DNA of 64,000 nucleotides from Streptomyces silvae. Its GTDB lineage: Bacteria > Actinomycetota > Actinomycetes > Streptomycetales > Streptomycetaceae. The stretch is from the NCBI RefSeq assembly GCF_016745505.1, contig NZ_JAERUC010000197.1, forward strand, positions 1 to 64,000, read 5' to 3'. Both the position numbers and the translations under genes were made by a program. The notes under the pieces were generated by a model. It did not search any database. It had not been told where the DNA came from and was given only the letters and a program-made list of their open reading frames with translations. Shown here in pieces: positions 4,461-21,887 of this stretch. Each line of letters opens with the position of its first letter. Within the stretch, counting starts at the first letter, position 1.

Positions 4461-4904
4461 TTACTTCTCGACCTCGGTGGCGAGGTTCTGCAGCAGTTCG
4501 TCGTAGATCCGGCCGAGCCCCTTGGGCGCGAACGTCCTCTCGAAGAATCCGCCGATGCCGCCGGCGCCGTCCCACACGGTGGTGACGACGGCCTTGGACC
4601 TGCCCTCACCGGCCGGGGTGACGGTCCAGGTGGTGACCATCGAGGAGTTCCGGTCCTTCTCGATCAGCTGGCCGTCGGTGGGCTCGGTGACCTCCAGCAG
4701 GCAGTCGCGGACCCGCTTGCTCGTCGCCTGGAGCTTCCAGTGGACGAGGGTGCCTTCGCCGTCTCCGCCCTCGCGTACCTCGTACTCGCTGAAGTGCCCG
4801 GTCAGCACCTTGCCCCGGACCTCCTTGTAGTCGGCCAGCGCATCGAACACCGTCTCTGCGTCCGCCGCGATGATCCGCTCTGTCGTGGCCTCGACCTGCG
4901 CCAT
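4461..4904 (-). CDS. SRPBCC (START/Bet v1-like) small-molecule binding protein
   Basis: 147 residues from the ATG at 4904, chosen because GGAGGAG lies about five bases upstream; an in-frame start at 4952 would only add an unconserved tail. The sequence MAQVEATTERIIAADAETVFDALADYKEVRG is typical of the polyketide cyclase/dehydrase (SRPBCC) fold, which binds hydrophobic ligands in a deep cavity. The gene is divergent from the radical-SAM gene. The ligand is unknown; it may be a lipid carrier or stress protein. Confidence 0.85.
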   Translation of the reverse strand: MAQVEATTERIIAADAETVFDALADYKEVRGKVLTGHFSEYEVREGGDGEGTLVHWKLQATSKRVRDCLLEVTEPTDGQLIEKDRNSSMVTTWTVTPAGEGRSKAVVTTVWDGAGGIGGFFERTFAPKGLGRIYDELLQNLATEVEK

Positions 4905-5006
4905 GCCTGCTCCTCCACCACTCGGTTGTACGGGGTGCTGTGAGCCAACCACCTCGGGTACGGCCCTTCAAAATCGGGGCCCGCGGTCCGCCGCGCACGA
5001 TCAAGG

Positions 5007-5024
5007 GAACACATGTTCTATTCT
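5007..5024 (+). promoter_or_regulatory. LexA (SOS) box abutting a -10 element
   Basis: GAACACATGTTC at 5007-5018 is a perfect GAAC-N4-GTTC palindrome, the LexA operator form of Gram-positive bacteria. It is followed at once by TATTCT (5019-5024), a good -10 hexamer. The ribosome site AAGGAGG (5039-5045) and the ATG at 5052 follow. LexA bound here would block the promoter, so the radical-SAM gene is likely induced by DNA damage. Confidence 0.75.
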
Positions 5025-5051
5025 CTGCGGAGTGCTACCAAGGAGGCGTTC

Positions 5052-6095
5052 ATGCGCTGGGACAATCTGGCAGAGAACACCACAAAGGCGGGTAACGGTG
5101 CGCTCTTCGCCGCGGACGCGGTGACGACGCGCACCTTCGACACCCCGGAATTCCGGGGCATCACCTTCCATGAGATCCGGGCCCGCTCGATCGTGAACCG
5201 GGTGCCCGGGGCCTCCCGCATGCCGTTCGAATGGACCGTGAACCCGTACCGCGGCTGCACCCACGCCTGTGTGTACTGCTTCGCCCGCAAGACCCACAGC
5301 TATCTGGACCTGGACACCGGCCTCGGTTTCGACTCCCAGATCGTCGTGAAGGTCAACGCCGCCGAGCTGCTGGGCCGCCATCTGGCCTCGCGCCAGTGGC
5401 ACGGCCAGCACATCGCGATGGGCACGAACGTCGACTGCTACCAGCGGGCGGAAGGCCGCTACCGTCTGATGCCCGGCATCATCGCGGCCCTGCGCGACCA
5501 CGCGAACCCGTTCTCCATCCTCACGAAGGGCACGCTGATCCTGCGCGATCTCGACCTGCTGCGGCAGGCCGCCGAGGTCACCGAGGTCGGTGTCTCCGTC
5601 TCGGTCGGCTTCACCGACCCCGAGCTGTGGCGCACGGTCGAGCCGGGCACCCCCTCTCCCGAGCGCCGCCTCGACGTGGTCCGCGCCATGACGGACAACG
5701 GGATCGGCTGCGGTGTGCTGATGGCCCCGGTCATCCCCTTCCTCGGCGACCACCCCGACCAGCTGCGCGCCACGGTCCGCGCCATCGCCGCCGCCGGGGC
5801 GACCTCGGTGACCCCGCTCGTCCTGCACCTGAGGCCCGGCGCCCGCGAGTGGTTCATGCAGTGGGTCGCGCAGCACCATCCGCACCTGGTGCGCCGGTAC
5901 GAGCGGATGTACGCGGACGGGGCGTACGCACCGACCTGGTACCAGCGCTCCATCACCCGCCGGGTCCACGAGCTGGCGGCCGAGTTCGGCATCGGCCCGG
6001 CCGACCGGGGCGGCGCCCGCCGCATCGACCGCGGGACCGAGCCGGCCCCGGCGGACGGCCACGCGCCCGGCCCCACCCAGCTGACCCTGCTCTGA
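5052..6095 (+). CDS. Rv2578c-family radical SAM protein
   Basis: 347 residues. The ATG at 5052 is preferred over an in-frame ATG at 5013 because it has AAGGAGG at ideal spacing and because 5013 lies inside the LexA-type operator. The cluster motif C-T-H-A-C-V-Y-C (Cys69, Cys73, Cys76; CX3CX2C) should bind a [4Fe-4S] cluster that cleaves SAM. The protein resembles the Rv2578c/SplB-like group, related to spore-photoproduct-lyase-type enzymes. Its reaction is not established. The SOS box upstream points to a role in DNA damage, for example repair of a lesion, but that is inference. Confidence 0.88.
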   Translation: MRWDNLAENTTKAGNGALFAADAVTTRTFDTPEFRGITFHEIRARSIVNRVPGASRMPFEWTVNPYRGCTHACVYCFARKTHSYLDLDTGLGFDSQIVVKVNAAELLGRHLASRQWHGQHIAMGTNVDCYQRAEGRYRLMPGIIAALRDHANPFSILTKGTLILRDLDLLRQAAEVTEVGVSVSVGFTDPELWRTVEPGTPSPERRLDVVRAMTDNGIGCGVLMAPVIPFLGDHPDQLRATVRAIAAAGATSVTPLVLHLRPGAREWFMQWVAQHHPHLVRRYERMYADGAYAPTWYQRSITRRVHELAAEFGIGPADRGGARRIDRGTEPAPADGHAPGPTQLTLL

Positions 6096-8550: not shown

Positions 8551-11500
8551 ATGTCAGAGGGGCTGTACGGATGGCTTGTTACCGCTGTCGCCGAATTCGG
8601 CAGGGCGTCCAAGATCAAACTGTTCGGTGGGGGCGGCCCGGAAGCATCGATACGCGGCCCGCTCGAGGCCCTGCTCAAGGCTGTCGGTGAGCGGCATCAG
8701 CAGCACGAAGTCAGCTGGCACGACGAGTACTCGCTCCCGGACCTCGGCGTCCGGCCCGACTACGCCGTACGGGCGGGCGGTGAGCTGACGGGCTATATCG
8801 AGCTCAAGCGGGCCGGTCTGTCCGTGGATCCCAATACGTTCAACAAGGCGAACAAAGAGCAGTGGGAGAAGCTGCGGAACCTCCCCAACGTGCTCTACTC
8901 CAACGGCACCGAGTGGCGGCTGTTCCGCGACGGACAACAGCTCGGCGAGACGGTCTGGTTCAACGGTGCGCTGAAGAGTGCGGGCAAGGCACTCTCCCCA
9001 GCCGACCCGGCCGCCTTCGACGCACTGCTCAAGGTCTTCCTCAACTGGAAGCCTCCCGCAATCTCCAACGTATCGCGGCTCGTTCAGCACATCGCCCCTC
9101 TGTGCAGGCTGCTGCGGTCGGCCGTACTGGAACAGTTGGCAGCCGAGCGCAGGTCCTCCGCCGCCGACGACGACCTCCGCTCCAGGCCGTTCACCGGCCT
9201 CAAGAACGAGTGGCGCAGACGGTTGTTCCCCTCCGCCGACGACGCCACGTTTGCGGACGGCTACGCACAGGCCGTGACCTTCGCACTCCTGCTCGCGCGC
9301 TCCGAGGGCCTCCTGGTGGAGGATGCAGGTCTCCATGACATCGGTCGGCGCCTCGACGCCGATCACGCCCTGATGGGCAGGGCATTACAACTGCTCACGG
9401 ACAACGTCAACGACCGCTTCCGGGTGACGCTCGAACTGCTCCAGCGCACGATCACGGGCGTGGACTGGCCTGCCATCCGGGCCGGCAACCGGGATGCCTA
9501 CCTCCACCTGTACGAGCACTTCCTCACGGTCTACGACCCCGCCCTGCGCCAGAAGAGCGGCTCCTACTACACCCCCCACCAGGTCGTGGAGGAGATGGTC
9601 CGGCTCACCGAGGACGTACTGCGCACCCGCCTGGGTCGGCCGACCGGCTTCGGTGAGGACGACGTACGCATCGTGGACCCTGCCATGGGGACGGGCACGT
9701 ATCTCCACACGATCATCGAGCGGGTGGCGGAGCAGGCCGCCGACCGCTACGGCCCCGCGATGGCCCCCGACGCCATCGCCCGCCTCGCCACGCGTCTCTA
9801 CGGTTTCGAGCTGCAGATGGGCCCCTACGCCGTGGCCGAGCTCCGCGCTTCGGACCTGCTGAAGCGTCACCGCGCGCCGGTGCCGGAAGACGGGCTCAAC
9901 CTCTATGTCACCGACACCCTCGACAACCCTTTCGTCGATGAGGAATACCTGTACTCACACGACGCGTTGTCCGCGTCCCGGCGGCGGGCCAATCGCATCA
10001 AGGCGAACACCCCGGTGACCGTCGTGATCGGAAATCCGCCGTACGACGACAAGGCAGAGAGCCGTGGCGGCTGGGTCGAGAAGCGAAGCGGCAGCCAGGA
10101 GCCGCCGCTTCTCGATGATTTCCGGCTGCCCGGGAACGGCCGGTATGAGCACGTACTCAAAAACATGTACGTCTATTTCTGGCGCTGGGCCGCCTGGAAG
10201 GTGTTCGACGCCCATGACGCCGACCGGCACGGAGTCGTCTGCTTCATCAGCCCGTCCGGCTGGACGACTGGCCCCGGCGGACGCGGGATGCGGGAATACC
10301 TGCGCCGGACGTGCGACGAGGGCTGGGTCATCAACCTCTCTCCGGAGGGACAGCGCGCGGATGTCGCCACACGAGTGTTTCCAGGTGTGGCGCAGCCGCT
10401 GGCCATCTGCATCTTCGTCCGCAAGGCGACGGTTGAAGGTGGCGAGCGCCGCACGGCACGCGTGCATTACCGCTCAGTGGCGGGCAGACGCGACGGGAAA
10501 TTCCGGCAGTTACGCACCATCGAGCTGGATGACAAGGGCTGGAGGGACACGCATGCCGATGGGGTGCGGCCCTTCACCCCCTCGACCCAGTCGGGATGGG
10601 AGGAGTTCCCGGCACTGGACAGCGTGTTTCAGTGGGGCAGCCCTGGCGTCAAATCGAACCGGTCCTGGGTCAGCAGCCCATCGCCGGAAACCCTGCGGCG
10701 GCGGTGGGTACGCCTCGTACGCGAGACGGACTCACAGAGCAAGGCAGAACTCTTCAAGTCCACCCGCGACCGCACGTTGAACGACAAGAAGGAGCCACTC
10801 CCAGGCCAGACGCACCAGTCACGCGCAATCGAGCACGAAACCAAGCTGCAACCGCAGTTGGTCCGCACGGCGCTGCGCAGCTTCGACAGACAGTGGCTCA
10901 TCTCGGACAACCGCGTTCTTGACTACCCGCGCCCCGACCTCTGGGCCGCGCTTCAACCCGACCAGCTCTTCCTCAACCAGCAGTCGTCGCACGAGATCGA
11001 TTCGGGCCCGGCCATCGTGGCCACCCATCTCCTGCCTGACACGCACCACTTCAACGGCCGTGGCGGCCGCGTTCTGCCTGTCCTCCACCCCGACGGCTCC
11101 CCCAACGTCACAGACGGCCTCCTCACCTACATGACCCACGCGATGGGTGGGAAGCCGGTGACAGTGATGGACCTCGCCGCGTACACCGTCGCTGTGACCG
11201 GCCACAGCGCATTCACCGAACGCTTCGCCGAAGACCTGCTCACCCCCGGAGTACGTCTACCGCTGACCCGTGATCCGGAATTGTGGCGCAGAGCCACGGC
11301 GGTCGGCAGAGAGCTTCTCTGGGCCTCGACCTACGGGGAGCGCTGTGCCGCCCCCGATGCGGGCCGGCCCTCCGGAGCGATCGAGTTCCCCTCCGGGGAT
11401 GAACGGCAGGTTCGCTACCTCACCCATATCGGCAGCAGCGTTCCGGAGCGCATGAGCTACGAGGCCGAGGCGCAGACCCTGCGCGTGGGCGACGGCACCT

Positions 11501-11859
11501 TCGCGCCTGTGCCTGAAGCGGTCTGGGCCTATCACGTCGGCGGCATGAGGGTCGTGAACAAGTGGTTCGGCTACCGCAAGGCGAAGCCCACCAGCAAGCG
11601 GACGAGTCCACTGGACGACATCCACGTCGAGAGCTGGCCGCCGGAGTGGACCAAGGAACTGATCGAACTGCTCTCCGTGCTCCGCCGCCTCACCGATCTC
11701 GGCCCCGCACAGTCCGAACTCCTGACGGACATCCTCGCCGGCCCCGTGGCCACTCACGCCGAGCTGACGGCGGCCGGAGTTCTGCTCGCCTCGGAGACCG
11801 GCCGAAAGCCGCGCTACCGTCCGGTGGACGGACTGTTCGCGGCAGACGTTCTCACATGA
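8551..11859 (+). CDS. ISP-like restriction endonuclease/N6-adenine methyltransferase without helicase
   Basis: 1102 residues, single-chain restriction-modification enzyme. The N-terminus has a PD-(D/E)XK nuclease signature: Asp70 in VRPDY, then Glu84-Leu-Lys86 in IELK. A gamma-class N6-adenine methyltransferase follows, with the YYTP entry motif, motif I DPAMGTG (from Asp375) and the catalytic NPPY at 495-498. The last 500 residues should hold the target-recognition domain. Full type ISP enzymes (about 1500 residues) have a helicase between nuclease and methylase; none is seen here, so this is the shorter Eco57I/type IIG-like form. Upstream and downstream genes do not overlap it, so it probably acts alone. 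Confidence 0.87.
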   Translation: MSEGLYGWLVTAVAEFGRASKIKLFGGGGPEASIRGPLEALLKAVGERHQQHEVSWHDEYSLPDLGVRPDYAVRAGGELTGYIELKRAGLSVDPNTFNKANKEQWEKLRNLPNVLYSNGTEWRLFRDGQQLGETVWFNGALKSAGKALSPADPAAFDALLKVFLNWKPPAISNVSRLVQHIAPLCRLLRSAVLEQLAAERRSSAADDDLRSRPFTGLKNEWRRRLFPSADDATFADGYAQAVTFALLLARSEGLLVEDAGLHDIGRRLDADHALMGRALQLLTDNVNDRFRVTLELLQRTITGVDWPAIRAGNRDAYLHLYEHFLTVYDPALRQKSGSYYTPHQVVEEMVRLTEDVLRTRLGRPTGFGEDDVRIVDPAMGTGTYLHTIIERVAEQAADRYGPAMAPDAIARLATRLYGFELQMGPYAVAELRASDLLKRHRAPVPEDGLNLYVTDTLDNPFVDEEYLYSHDALSASRRRANRIKANTPVTVVIGNPPYDDKAESRGGWVEKRSGSQEPPLLDDFRLPGNGRYEHVLKNMYVYFWRWAAWKVFDAHDADRHGVVCFISPSGWTTGPGGRGMREYLRRTCDEGWVINLSPEGQRADVATRVFPGVAQPLAICIFVRKATVEGGERRTARVHYRSVAGRRDGKFRQLRTIELDDKGWRDTHADGVRPFTPSTQSGWEEFPALDSVFQWGSPGVKSNRSWVSSPSPETLRRRWVRLVRETDSQSKAELFKSTRDRTLNDKKEPLPGQTHQSRAIEHETKLQPQLVRTALRSFDRQWLISDNRVLDYPRPDLWAALQPDQLFLNQQSSHEIDSGPAIVATHLLPDTHHFNGRGGRVLPVLHPDGSPNVTDGLLTYMTHAMGGKPVTVMDLAAYTVAVTGHSAFTERFAEDLLTPGVRLPLTRDPELWRRATAVGRELLWASTYGERCAAPDAGRPSGAIEFPSGDERQVRYLTHIGSSVPERMSYEAEAQTLRVGDGTFAPVPEAVWAYHVGGMRVVNKWFGYRKAKPTSKRTSPLDDIHVESWPPEWTKELIELLSVLRRLTDLGPAQSELLTDILAGPVATHAELTAAGVLLASETGRKPRYRPVDGLFAADVLT

Positions 11860-16763: not shown

Positions 16764-19700
16764 ATGACGTACGACTCCTTGATGAACCGCGGTGAGTACT
16801 TCTCCGCGCACTATCTGGCCGAAGTACTGCCCAAGGACCTCAAGTCCGGGCTGCTCGCGGAGTGGAAGCAGCGCGAGGACGAGGCGGCGGACGCGCTGAA
16901 GGCCGCCGCAGAGGAGTCCGGCGCCGAGGCGGAGCCGGCCCCCGATGCGCTGCCGGTCACTCCCCGAGCGGGGTTGCGCGCCCTGCGCCGCCCGTACTTC
17001 CGGGCCCGTTCGTACTTCGCCCTCGGCGGGGAGCACGCGACCACGGAGTCTTCGGCGGTCCCCTCGGTGAGTGACGACGACACCGTCACGTACGCGTCCC
17101 CGGAGTGGCGGGAGCGCGTACGCGCGCTGAACGCGGACGTCCTGCGCGCGCTCGGTTTCGACGCCAAGCCGCGCACGATCACCGTGGAGCGGGCGGAGCA
17201 GTCGTACGAGGTGCGGGTCGCCCACTACGAGAAGGACCTCGTCGCCCTGGACTGCGGCTGGGCCGCAGAACCGGACGCCGCCCTCGACCCGAACGGTCCC
17301 GGCCGTCTGCTGGAACAGCTGGCCCTGGACGGCCAGCACCGGGTGACGACCGGCTCCAAGCTCGCCTCGTTCCTCTTCGCCTGCGAGGACGCCCCTCGCT
17401 ATGTCCTGCTGCTGGTCGGCGGTGTCGTCGTCCTCGCGGACCGTGCCGCTTGGGGCGAGGGCCGGTACCTGGCGCTGTCCCTGGACGCCGCCCTGGAGCG
17501 CAACGACACCAAGGCCGGTGGCGAGCTCGACACCGTGGCGGCCCTGTTCGGCGCCGACTCGCTCCGTACGCCGGAGGAGGGCGGCGAGAACCCGCTCGCC
17601 GGACTCGTCGACAAGTCGACGAAACATGCGGTCGGCGTGTCCAGCGAACTCCGCGACGGCCTGCGGATCAGCGTCGAGCTCATCGCCAACGAGGTCCTGG
17701 AGCGCCTGCGCGAGCAGGGCGTCCGCCCGGAGGACGTCAAGGAACTCCCGGAGCTGGGCCGCCAGCTGACCCGCGAGTCGTTGCGCTTCCTCTACCGCAT
17801 CCTGTTCCTGCTGTACGCGGAGGCCCGCCCCGAGCTCGGCATCCTGCCCTCCGACTACCCCGAGTACCAGCAGGGCTACGGCCTGGCCCGCCTCGGCGAC
17901 CTGGTAGCGGAACAGGACCTGGTGGACGAGAAGTCCCGCCGCGGCTTCTATCTGTACGAGTCCCTTGACCTGCTCTTCCGCAAGGTCCAGGAGGGCTACC
18001 GCCCGCGCCGCACCCACGGGGCACCTTCGTCCCCTGCGGCGAAGGCGTCCGAGGACCTCGGTCTGCGCTTCGAGCCCCTGCACTCCAAGCTGTTCGAGCA
18101 GGAGTCCATCAAGCTGATCGGCGCACGCGCCGTCCCCGACCCCCGCCACGACGCGGACGAGCCCGGCTCGGAACGCTTCCTGGACACCCGCCTGCGCAAC
18201 GCCACCCTGTACCGCGTGCTGCGCCTGCTGATGCTCACGCGCGGAAAGCGCAAGGAACGCGGCGGCTTCATCTCGTACGCCCAGCTCGGCATCAACCAAC
18301 TCGGCGCGGTCTACGAGGGCCTGATGTCGTACAGCGGCTTCGTCGCCGGCGAGGAACTGTACGAGGTCGCGAAGAACGGCGACCCGAAGGACGGCTCCTG
18401 GCTGGTCCCGTCCTCGCGGGCCGACGAGTACGCCGACTCGGTGTACGTACGGGAGCGCGACGAGTACACCGGCGAGGAGCGGCGGATCCGCCACGCCCCG
18501 GGCTCGTTCGTCTACCGCCTCTCCGGCCGCGACCGCCAGACCTCGGCCTCGTACTACACCCCGGAGTCCCTGACCAAGGTCACCGTCCAGCTGGCGCTCC
18601 AGCACCGCCTGGACCAGGACGACACGGTGACTGAAGCCCGGGAGATGCTGGACTGGAAGATCTGTGAGCCGGCGCTGGGCTCGGGGGCGTTCCTCAACGA
18701 GGCGATCAACCAGGTGGCGGCGGAGTATCTGCGGCGCCGTCAGGACGAGTTGGGCGTCGCGATCGATACGGAGAAGTACGCCCAGGAGCTCCAGAAGGCG
18801 AAGGCGTACATCGCCCTGCACAACTCCTACGGCGTCGACCTCAACGAGACGGCCGTGGAGCTGGCCGAGGTGTCGCTGTGGCTGAACACGATGCACCCCG
18901 GCATGGAGGCCCCGTGGTTCGGCCTGCACCTGCGGCGCGGCAACTCGCTGATCGGCGGACGGCGTGAGGTGTACGGCCCGGAACGCCTGAAGAAGGGCGG
19001 CTGGCTGGGCACCACCCCGGAACGCTTCCCACTGGCGGACGCGGTGACCGGTGCGGAGCTCCCGGAGGGGGCGGTGCACCACTTCCTGCTCCCGGCGAAG
19101 GAGTGGGGCGCGGTCGCGGCCGAGAAGGAGGCCAAAGCGCTGGCGCCCGAGGCGGCGAAGACGCTGGGCGCGTGGCGGAAGGCGATCACGAAGTCCCCGA
19201 GCGCGAAGCAGACGGCACGGTTGCAGGGGCTGGCGCGGCGGGCGGAGTACCTGTGGGGCCTGGTGGTGCGCCGCCTGGAGATCTCGGAGCGGGACATCTC
19301 GCGCCGGATCGACGTGTGGGGTGCGGAGGAGGGCTGGCTGCGGTCGCCCGAGGTCGCGGTGCAGAGAGAAAAGGTGCTGGCGGACCTGGAGGCGGTCGAC
19401 ACCCCGTACTGGCGGCTGAAGACGCTGATGGACACGTGGTGCGCGCTGTGGTTCTGGCCGGTGCAGGAGGCTGCGCTGCTGGACGGCTCGGCCGAGCAGT
19501 ACGCACGGCCGGCCGAGGTCGCGGGCGTGACGGCGGACCACGAGTCCGGTGTGCTCATGTCCTGGGAGACGGACGACCTGTTCGGCGAAACGACGGACTC
19601 GCGTGAGCTGACGCGAGAGTCGGTGGAGCGCCGACGAGGTACGGGCCGCCGGAAGGAGCAGATCCGGGAGCAGCGGCGACCGGTGATCCCCCTGGCGGCG

Positions 19701-21887
19701 CTGGAGGACTGGCTGGACTTCGCGGAGTCGCTGCTGGGCACGCAGGAGGTTCCGTCGGACTCGCTGGTGGCATCGTTCGCGACGCTGGACGAGCTGGAAC
19801 CGTACGAGGACGCACTGCCCGAGCTGATGGGAATGGATCGGGCGCACTGGCTGGAGAACCGATTCCTGTGGGTGGCGGTTGCGGCGGATGTTGCGGCGCG
19901 GCAGGGGTTCTTCCACTGGGAGCTGGAGTACGCGCAGGTGTTTGCGCGGGGTGGGTACGACTTGCAGGTGGGGAATCCGCCTTGGGTTAGGCCGCGGTGG
20001 CAGGAGGATCTGGTTCTGGCGGAGCTGGAACCGTGGTTCGCGCTGACCGAAAAGCCTAGCGTGACGGATTGGAGATCACGAAAGGGAGATACGCTCAAGG
20101 AAACAACGAGGGCACGCCACTATTTCCTGGAAGAGCTGTCTTCCAACATTGGAACCCTATCGGTTCTGAGCAATTCCACGATGTATCCCTTGCTCACTGG
20201 AACCCAACCAGACCTGTACCGAGCCTTCATGTGTCAAGCGTGGTCGAACCTACACTCCACAGGGATGGCTGGACTCATTCACCCGGACTCACATTTCGCA
20301 GGGATCAAGGAGAAAACTCTCCGAGGGGCGACCTACAGACACCTACGCCTTCATGCACATTTCATCAATGCAAAACTGCTATTCGATATTCACGATCGCA
20401 TTGAATATGGAATCCACGTGTACGGCGCAGGGCGAGCACCAAACTTCATACACGCAAGCTGGCTCTTCACAGCCGAGACTCTCAGCGGGTCCCTCTCACA
20501 CAATAGCTCCGGCCCGACCCCTGGCATGAAATATAACCAGAATTGGGACATTCGCTCGCACGGGGCGCGGCTGATCCATGTAGACGAACAGCAGTTGGCG
20601 CAGTGGAATAAGCTTTCAGGCGAAGACGGCGTCCCCGACTTGGAGGCCGCGCTCCTGTACCCCGTTACTACCGACGAGCAAGGAGCCATTGCGGCACTGT
20701 CTGCCGTGGCGGAACGTGTCATACGCCATAAACCGGCCATCAGTCCCGGCTATCACGAAAAGAAGGCCAAGGAAGATGGCCTGATCAGATGGGACACAAA
20801 CCAGCCGACCACCCTGGATCAGGTAATTCTACAGGGCCCTCATTTCGCAGTCGCAACTCCATTCAACAAGCAACCCAATATCCCATGCCGCCACAACCAG
20901 GACTATTCACCCTGGGACCATCGGACCATCGCTGCCGACGTCGTACCCCACACGAATTACGTACGCGCAAGCGACCTCGTTCGATACCAGGACGCGCAAG
21001 ACATGTGGAATGGCCGTCGACACACAGAGTATTATCGATTGGCTTGGCGAATCATGATTCCGCTCGCCAACGAACGAAGCTTGTTCGCTGCACTTATCCC
21101 TCCGGGGCCATCACATATTCACGGCGTGCACTCAATGGTGCTCCCGAGTAATCTCCTCACGGTCCTAAATTCTGGGTTTTGGGCGGCCCTCCCGCTGGAT
21201 TACCTACTTCGCATCACGGGCCGCGCCAATCTGATGACTGGCGAGGCGCTCAAGATGCCTGCGCCTACCTCCAACCACCCGCTCGCCGCCCCCCTGCTCC
21301 TCCGCACTCTCCGCCTCAACTGCCTCACCGATGCATACACCCCCCTCTGGGAAGAGCTGTACCACCCCACCTGGCCCGGCTACGAAGACTGGGCCAACCC
21401 GGTGTGGCCCAACCTCGCCCCCCTGGCGACTCCCCTCACGTCTACCTGGCAGTACGACACCCCCCTCCGCACCGAATACGAACGCCGCGCCGCCCTCGTA
21501 GAGCTCGACGCGCTCGTCTCCGTCTGGCTCGGCATCACCGCCGATCAGCTAGTCGCGATCTATAAGTCCCGCTACCCCGTCCTCTCCGACTACGAGTCCG
21601 AGATGTACTTCGACGCCCGCGGCCGCAAAATCGCCCGCAACCACAACACCCACGGTCACGGCCAGACCAAGCAGGACTACCTCGACCTCCTCGACCACCT
21701 GGCCTCCCCCGCCACCACCCCACCCCCCGCCGGCTACACCGCCCCCTTCTACAAGGCCGACCGTGAAACCGAAATGCGCGCCGCTCACGCGCACTTCCAG
21801 GCCCGCCTGGATGCCGAGATCGCCGCAGGCCGCTGGTCCCCGCCCGAGCCGGCCCTCACCCCGGAAAGCGCGCCCGTGCCGGAATGA
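16764..21887 (+). CDS. Giant N6-adenine DNA methyltransferase, DrmMI-like
   Basis: 1707 residues. Residues 1-600 are a large N-terminal region with a YVLLLVGGVVVLADR beta-rich core, as seen before the methylase domain of Eco57I-like enzymes. The methylase has YYTPESL, motif I EPALGSGAF (635-643) and the catalytic NPPW at 1071-1074, separated by an unusually long insertion. Residues about 1096-1495 (20050-21250) should be the target-recognition domain; this stretch is far AT-richer than the rest. I see no PD-(D/E)XK nuclease. The gene overlaps the next by ATGA. The pairing with an SNF2 helicase matches DrmD/DrmMI of class 1 DISARM, so it probably marks self DNA. Confidence 0.87.
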   Translation: MTYDSLMNRGEYFSAHYLAEVLPKDLKSGLLAEWKQREDEAADALKAAAEESGAEAEPAPDALPVTPRAGLRALRRPYFRARSYFALGGEHATTESSAVPSVSDDDTVTYASPEWRERVRALNADVLRALGFDAKPRTITVERAEQSYEVRVAHYEKDLVALDCGWAAEPDAALDPNGPGRLLEQLALDGQHRVTTGSKLASFLFACEDAPRYVLLLVGGVVVLADRAAWGEGRYLALSLDAALERNDTKAGGELDTVAALFGADSLRTPEEGGENPLAGLVDKSTKHAVGVSSELRDGLRISVELIANEVLERLREQGVRPEDVKELPELGRQLTRESLRFLYRILFLLYAEARPELGILPSDYPEYQQGYGLARLGDLVAEQDLVDEKSRRGFYLYESLDLLFRKVQEGYRPRRTHGAPSSPAAKASEDLGLRFEPLHSKLFEQESIKLIGARAVPDPRHDADEPGSERFLDTRLRNATLYRVLRLLMLTRGKRKERGGFISYAQLGINQLGAVYEGLMSYSGFVAGEELYEVAKNGDPKDGSWLVPSSRADEYADSVYVRERDEYTGEERRIRHAPGSFVYRLSGRDRQTSASYYTPESLTKVTVQLALQHRLDQDDTVTEAREMLDWKICEPALGSGAFLNEAINQVAAEYLRRRQDELGVAIDTEKYAQELQKAKAYIALHNSYGVDLNETAVELAEVSLWLNTMHPGMEAPWFGLHLRRGNSLIGGRREVYGPERLKKGGWLGTTPERFPLADAVTGAELPEGAVHHFLLPAKEWGAVAAEKEAKALAPEAAKTLGAWRKAITKSPSAKQTARLQGLARRAEYLWGLVVRRLEISERDISRRIDVWGAEEGWLRSPEVAVQREKVLADLEAVDTPYWRLKTLMDTWCALWFWPVQEAALLDGSAEQYARPAEVAGVTADHESGVLMSWETDDLFGETTDSRELTRESVERRRGTGRRKEQIREQRRPVIPLAALEDWLDFAESLLGTQEVPSDSLVASFATLDELEPYEDALPELMGMDRAHWLENRFLWVAVAADVAARQGFFHWELEYAQVFARGGYDLQVGNPPWVRPRWQEDLVLAELEPWFALTEKPSVTDWRSRKGDTLKETTRARHYFLEELSSNIGTLSVLSNSTMYPLLTGTQPDLYRAFMCQAWSNLHSTGMAGLIHPDSHFAGIKEKTLRGATYRHLRLHAHFINAKLLFDIHDRIEYGIHVYGAGRAPNFIHASWLFTAETLSGSLSHNSSGPTPGMKYNQNWDIRSHGARLIHVDEQQLAQWNKLSGEDGVPDLEAALLYPVTTDEQGAIAALSAVAERVIRHKPAISPGYHEKKAKEDGLIRWDTNQPTTLDQVILQGPHFAVATPFNKQPNIPCRHNQDYSPWDHRTIAADVVPHTNYVRASDLVRYQDAQDMWNGRRHTEYYRLAWRIMIPLANERSLFAALIPPGPSHIHGVHSMVLPSNLLTVLNSGFWAALPLDYLLRITGRANLMTGEALKMPAPTSNHPLAAPLLLRTLRLNCLTDAYTPLWEELYHPTWPGYEDWANPVWPNLAPLATPLTSTWQYDTPLRTEYERRAALVELDALVSVWLGITADQLVAIYKSRYPVLSDYESEMYFDARGRKIARNHNTHGHGQTKQDYLDLLDHLASPATTPPPAGYTAPFYKADRETEMRAAHAHFQARLDAEIAAGRWSPPEPALTPESAPVPE
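20050..21260 (+). other. AT-rich segment inside the methyltransferase gene
   Basis: By hand count, the 60-base lines starting at 20101, 20341 and 20401 contain 48, 42 and 52 percent G+C, whereas lines around 19141 and 21661 are about 65-75 percent. The reading frame stays open throughout. The low-GC part lies just after NPPW and covers the expected target-recognition domain, so it looks like a segment acquired by recombination. Confidence 0.8.

Follow-up and report, generated by a model that had tools for sequence, protein, structure and literature searches.

The window analysed here, a stretch of 64,000 nucleotides of Streptomyces silvae DNA, raises the question of whether the palindrome in front of its radical SAM gene is an operator for LexA, and what such an operator might say about the enzyme. 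The initial annotation had described a perfect LexA-type palindrome adjoining a TATTCT -10 element, and a motif scan of the window bore this out: GAACACATGTTC (5007-5018, GAAC-N4-GTTC core 8/8) is followed directly by TATTCT (Table 1). The downstream protein matched the family model NF038135 with 530.1 bits (curated cut-off, 430) and was the single match in the 7.96-Mb genome. A longer mechanical ORF from 5013 was rejected as the gene start, since it begins within the box and homologues share a (M/V)RW start that aligns with 5052. The stretch 4996-5055 runs CACGATCAAGGGAACACATGTTCTATTCT...AAGGAGG...ATG. As read from the sequence, the window promoter has no canonical -35 element; CACGAT, part of the CACGATCA stretch, lies 17 bp 5' of TATTCT and is unlike TTGACA. 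The outer bases of the box, GG...TA, match the consensus TC...GA at one of four positions and miss it at three. Visual inspection of the window showed no PafBC-type promoter motif with suitable spacing.

Table 1. Features of the radical SAM promoter and gene, with positions in the window
Feature	Position	Strand	Basis and remarks
Putative LexA operator (SOS box) GGGAACACATGTTCTA	5005-5020	+	Palindromic core 5007-5018; conserved upstream of orthologues
-10 element TATTCT	5019-5024	+	Overlaps right edge of operator; column conservation among Streptomyces
CACGATCA at -35 position	4996-5003	+	Column conservation 60-97%, conditioned on perfect-core sites; putative role
Shine-Dalgarno AAGGAGG	5040-5046	+	Sequence read; AGGAGG-type 5-mer kept in Streptomyces upstream regions
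Rv2578c-family radical SAM gene, 347 aa	5052-6095	+	NF038135 match; start by homology
CX3CX2C iron-sulphur motif, C69/C73/C76	5256-5279	+	Translation; cysteines invariant in 46 aligned sequences, own included
SRPBCC-type gene	4461-4952	-	Divergent neighbour of radical SAM gene

By itself, GAAC-N4-GTTC is weak evidence. It occurred twice in the window, compared with a mean of 0.52 in shuffles, 6 of 100 of which held at least two copies; the second site in the window, at 20028-20039, lies within a 1707-aa ORF. The extended pattern GAAC-N4-GTTC-NANNNT was found twice in the whole genome and not at all in a backward-read control. What raises the box above chance is its conservation upstream of orthologues. 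The protein was matched in 141 of 150 genomes of the genus, mostly near full length among the matches listed. We collected 132 loci besides the window's own (29 from the best-scoring genomes of the genus, 80 from a second listing, 3 more, and 20 more divergent ones), which gave 125 distinct 150-nt upstream regions; the 80 were all titled Streptomyces except one [Kitasatospora] papulosa and one Microtetraspora glauca. The core was perfect in 116 of the 125 regions and 7/8 in the other nine, with none lower. Among 14,285 random 150-nt stretches from the Streptomyces loci at least 3 kb long, which include coding DNA and are not promoters alone, 0.03% had a perfect core and about 2.6% had at least 7/8. 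The 20 more divergent orthologues had perfect (15) or 7/8 (5) cores.

The surroundings of the box were conserved as well. Most perfect sites (87/116) began at -46 to -48, GTTCTATT was present in 120 of the 125 upstream regions, and the six TATTCT columns were 87-100% conserved across the 119 distinct sequences from Streptomyces whose core was perfect. In the Streptomyces table, which is conditioned on a perfect core, the central bases of the box varied and GGGAAC...GTTCTATTCT was nearly constant. The CACGATCA stretch was kept in most Streptomyces promoters and absent from several divergent ones, some of which had a TTGACA-type element further upstream. As positive controls, lexA carried TCGAACGTGTGTTTGG upstream in 30/30 genomes of the genus, and recA a TCGAACA-type site in 29/30, the exception (L270) being a clipped and misplaced locus. 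Since the cores of these accepted SOS boxes were mostly 7/8, we regard 7/8 as a fair threshold. The window's own genome has lexA with its TCGAACGTGTGTTTGG box; its recA is split by contig ends, which places that promoter outside the comparison.

The same gene was then considered across the class. Of 296 sampled genomes, 119 had it above the family cut-off, 26 belonging to the genus of the window and 93 to others. We analysed 90 of these 93 genes in two sets of 79 and 11 (left out were L182, with an unreadable start, G261 and G336). The box was perfect in 71 (61/79 and 10/11) and the core was at least 7/8 in 87 (76/79 and 11/11), against a background, in 13,902 random stretches with coding DNA included, of 0.24% perfect, 4.9% with seven matches and 5.1% with at least 7/8. 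The three cores below 7/8 all came from a single genus (g67 of family f36). In 72/79 and 11/11 genes, a best site of at least 7/8 began 20-30 nt 5' of the start codon. The check proposed with the initial annotation, an alignment of orthologous upstream regions for the same box, thus found cores of at least 7/8 in 125/125 Streptomyces and 87/90 other upstream regions, most of them within a narrow range of positions. A chance origin of the palindrome, with the gene free of LexA control, is a reading favored by the two copies in the window and the 6 of 100 shuffles that reached this number; it is refuted by the orthologue comparison and has practically no probability left.

Two further groups of radical SAM genes were scanned. 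Lower-scoring paralogues of one family (L230-L239, f17) failed as box-free negative controls, because all ten had their own near-identical LexA-like box with a 7/8 core upstream. In a more remote set of radical SAM genes, L240-L243, the best sites matched 5-6 of 8 core positions in 174-705 nt searched. In 17 of 77 non-Streptomyces genes (L147, L148 and L152, for example), the 17 being spread over six families of the class, the match was lengthened beyond 1,150 bases, presumably by inteins; NCBIfam includes an intein-containing Rv2578c model.

A regulator other than LexA with a similar palindrome might be proposed for the Streptomyces box, whose flanks are mostly GG...TA rather than TC...GA and which is accompanied by the additional conserved CACGATCA upstream. 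However, the same gene elsewhere in the class often carries the full TCGAAC-N4-GTTCGA with all four outer bases, and this form was found in many non-Streptomyces orthologues. Moreover, eight of the nine imperfect Streptomyces cores had three of the four outer consensus bases, although the scan breaks ties toward more outer matches and so favors this result somewhat; with that caveat, the pattern fits a single protein reading the whole site. The S. venezuelae boxes of alkB and ruvC, which are marked as validated, depart further from TC...GA than the window box does (PMC9380542), suggesting that the outer bases are preferred and not obligatory. Together with LexA ChIP and mitomycin C induction reported for an orthologue in the same paper, these observations make another regulator very improbable.

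Conservation also bears on which gene the operator would serve. The intergenic region is common to the radical SAM gene and the divergent SRPBCC-type gene, and is often so in Streptomyces (PMC12924846, in the part available), so that the operator could belong to the SRPBCC-type gene instead. Yet outside Streptomyces no divergent neighbour was found to recur across many families and the box stays near -24, which leaves this assignment a highly improbable one. When ORFs filtered by codon GC were compared over approximately 3 kb per side, no neighbour gene was found to recur beyond 4 of 15 families, which indicates that the box follows the gene and not the neighbourhood. A conserved operon partner was likewise rejected, as the sole ORF cluster of many families (13) was antisense to the gene itself and the next comprised 4 families. 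In the window, the downstream gene codes for an alpha/beta hydrolase. Further along, there is a type ISP restriction-modification protein (8551-11859), and the 1707-aa ORF (16764-21887) resembles a large DNA methylase by eye; the two may form a defence island.

We therefore conclude with high confidence that 5005-5020 is a LexA operator lying between the -35 and -10 positions of the promoter of the single Rv2578c-family radical SAM gene. The link between operator and gene rests on sequence conservation and, for an orthologue, on published ChIP and induction (PMC9380542). The window box adjoins the conserved TATTCT and thus overlaps its target promoter. From established LexA biology, LexA bound at this site would block RNA polymerase, and DNA damage would activate RecA, leading to self-cleavage of LexA and expression of the radical SAM gene.

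The published evidence comes from S. venezuelae, in which vnz_31145, annotated as 'Radical SAM protein', had a LexA ChIP-seq peak and was induced 19.97-fold by mitomycin C in RNA-seq (PMC9380542, Stratton et al. 2022). The SOS box printed for it in Table 1 of that paper is TCGACCGTTCGCTC at -61. This 14-mer occurred exactly once in one of our genomes, G015, in opposite orientation to the gene and at -38 to -25 of the Rv2578c-family gene; it was absent from genomes G000 and G058 and occurred twice in G137. Because the sequence is unique in G015 and directly upstream of the family gene, it ties vnz_31145 to the Rv2578c family. Thus, vnz_31145 is very likely the orthologue of the window gene, and G015 appears to be S. 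venezuelae or a very close relative. The two genes very likely share a family, and vnz_31145 is LexA-bound and mitomycin C-induced (PMC9380542); they differ in that the box printed for vnz_31145 is not the conserved one and that the window gene, from another genome, is known here from its sequence.

The G015 promoter also contains the conserved box, GGGAACAGGTGTTCTA, starting at -58. If the printed assignment is taken at face value, LexA binds the downstream TCGACCGTTCGCTC and the upstream palindrome is secondary. However, the two boxes of this promoter differ in core matches, with 6/8 in the 14-mer and 8/8 in the upstream box. Among 122 other Streptomyces loci, only one had a perfect first box closely followed by another site of at least 7/8. 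The printed position of -61, which equals neither, is also nearer to the conserved box (-58) than to the 14-mer (-38 to -25). Binding at the printed sequence is accordingly very unlikely; TCGACCGTTCGCTC was probably misassigned and is probably not the operator, a correction that leaves the ChIP result itself untouched.

In M. tuberculosis, Rv2578c is presumably the gene for the RecA-dependent 'DNA repair photolyase', and it is reportedly included in the lists of Davis 2002 and Smollett 2012. The initial annotation had suggested that mycobacterial homologues may also be controlled by LexA, which is compatible with the RecA-dependent 'DNA repair photolyase' described in M. tuberculosis (PMC8151990) and with box-bearing relatives in many families. 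Other reports, as far as the text available goes, describe related associations. 'A radical SAM protein' is counted in an inferred core SOS regulon of Gram-positive bacteria, comprising Actinobacteria and Firmicutes (PMC7739468), which resembles our case in having a LexA-controlled radical SAM gene and differs in covering seven species without Streptomyces. SplB/COG1533 occurs in SOS-like networks of Bacteroidetes (PMC8565304), again a radical SAM protein under SOS-type control, but in another phylum and with the motif GGA-N5-TCC. SplB-like radical SAM genes have also been linked with SOS-associated neighbours (PMC3765255). The SOS membership of such radical SAM genes is therefore already in print, for a very likely orthologue, and the claim that the window gene is damage-induced under LexA gains support from both the class-wide conservation of the operator and the ChIP-seq and mitomycin C RNA-seq data for vnz_31145 (PMC9380542). 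What our analysis adds is the class-wide scale and a probable correction of the published operator.

A further addition is an apparent shift in promoter design. Outside Streptomyces, the box lies at about -24; in Streptomyces, it is further upstream, with TATTCT adjoining. The comparison covered the 74 non-Streptomyces loci with a best site that begins between -30 and -20. In 73 of them, the right end of the box forms a TCGAAT-like hexamer starting 11-13 nt 5' of the start codon, and in 43 a TTGACA-like sequence (at least 5/6) lies close to where a -35 element would be expected. Only 2 of the 74 had an AGGAGG-type 5-mer separating the box from the start codon, whereas 124 of the 125 distinct Streptomyces upstream regions had one within the last 20 nt 5' of the start. 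The geometry outside Streptomyces looks like that of a leaderless messenger, in which transcription would start with the start codon itself, and the Streptomyces promoter reads as one with a leader and a ribosome site. This suggests a change from leaderless to leadered design.

With regard to the enzyme, an AlphaFold2 model (mean pLDDT 84.8) was closest in fold to spore photoproduct lyase (SPL), with Z scores of 20.1-20.3 over 267-273 residues at 14-15% identity; the next families scored approximately 15. The best VIA-align match had Z 20.3 and rmsd 3.5 over 273 aligned residues, and Foldseek also placed SPL first. The SPL structures matched were PDB 4fhc, 4fhe-4fhg, 4k9r and 4rh0, and the CX3CX2C motif is common to SPL and the window protein. 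A sequence search against PDB gave no match at 0.01, SPL appearing only at E values of 0.018 and above. The relay tyrosine of SPL, Tyr98, directly follows the third cysteine; its counterpart here is Phe77, invariant in 46 aligned sequences, a pairing taken from a low-scoring alignment with the PDB chains of SPL that is anchored by the cysteines. The hydrogen-donor Cys140/141 of SPL would presumably fall on Thr125. We do not use spore photoproduct lyase as a name for this protein. A paper on the Samy vector also warns against the name and calls the link to repair speculative (PMC12924846); the terms SOS and LexA do not occur in its main text.

The protein presumably functions as a radical SAM enzyme and might have DNA as its substrate, and induction by damage would point to a role in repair. 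Of the possible functions, we consider it most likely, at roughly even confidence, that the enzyme acts on damaged DNA through an SPL-like fold yet is not a spore photoproduct lyase. A more far-reaching proposal, which we regard as rather doubtful, would have Rv2578c-family proteins serve throughout the class as SOS-induced radical SAM enzymes, reversing a lesion of DNA during growth through chemistry unlike that of SPL.

The gene is also a target of integration. The attB site of Samy lies within it (PMC12924846, in the part available), and in three Streptomyces genomes (G149, G108 and G068), and perhaps in G146, where the pieces are on two contigs, it is split near codons 66-79, at or beside the iron-sulphur motif. 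The insertions that split the gene in three Streptomyces genomes measure about 29, 13 and 8 kb, and one has a serine recombinase confirmed by Pfam. Perfect SOS boxes persist beside the 5' fragment at L250, L252 and L254, and none was found at L253. Capture of the SOS promoter by a prophage, such that it would read into the integrase of the insert, was rejected for the two loci in which a recombinase was seen: at L252, the recombinase (Pfam Resolvase/Recombinase) is located next to the 3' fragment and faces the other way from the gene, being encoded on the opposite strand, and at L250, a recombinase-like ORF, assigned by eye, converges on the promoter. For users of the Samy attB site in phage or vector integration, the gene receiving the insert is very likely an SOS gene.

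The SOS operator is kept in nearly all examined copies of the gene, in 16 non-Streptomyces families as well as in Streptomyces, and this marks out the enzyme as a strong candidate for a step of general use in the damage response. If the proposed reversal of a lesion is true, a near-universal, neighbour-independent SOS operator kept in many families would single out the Rv2578c family as carrying out a core step of repair in Actinomycetia.
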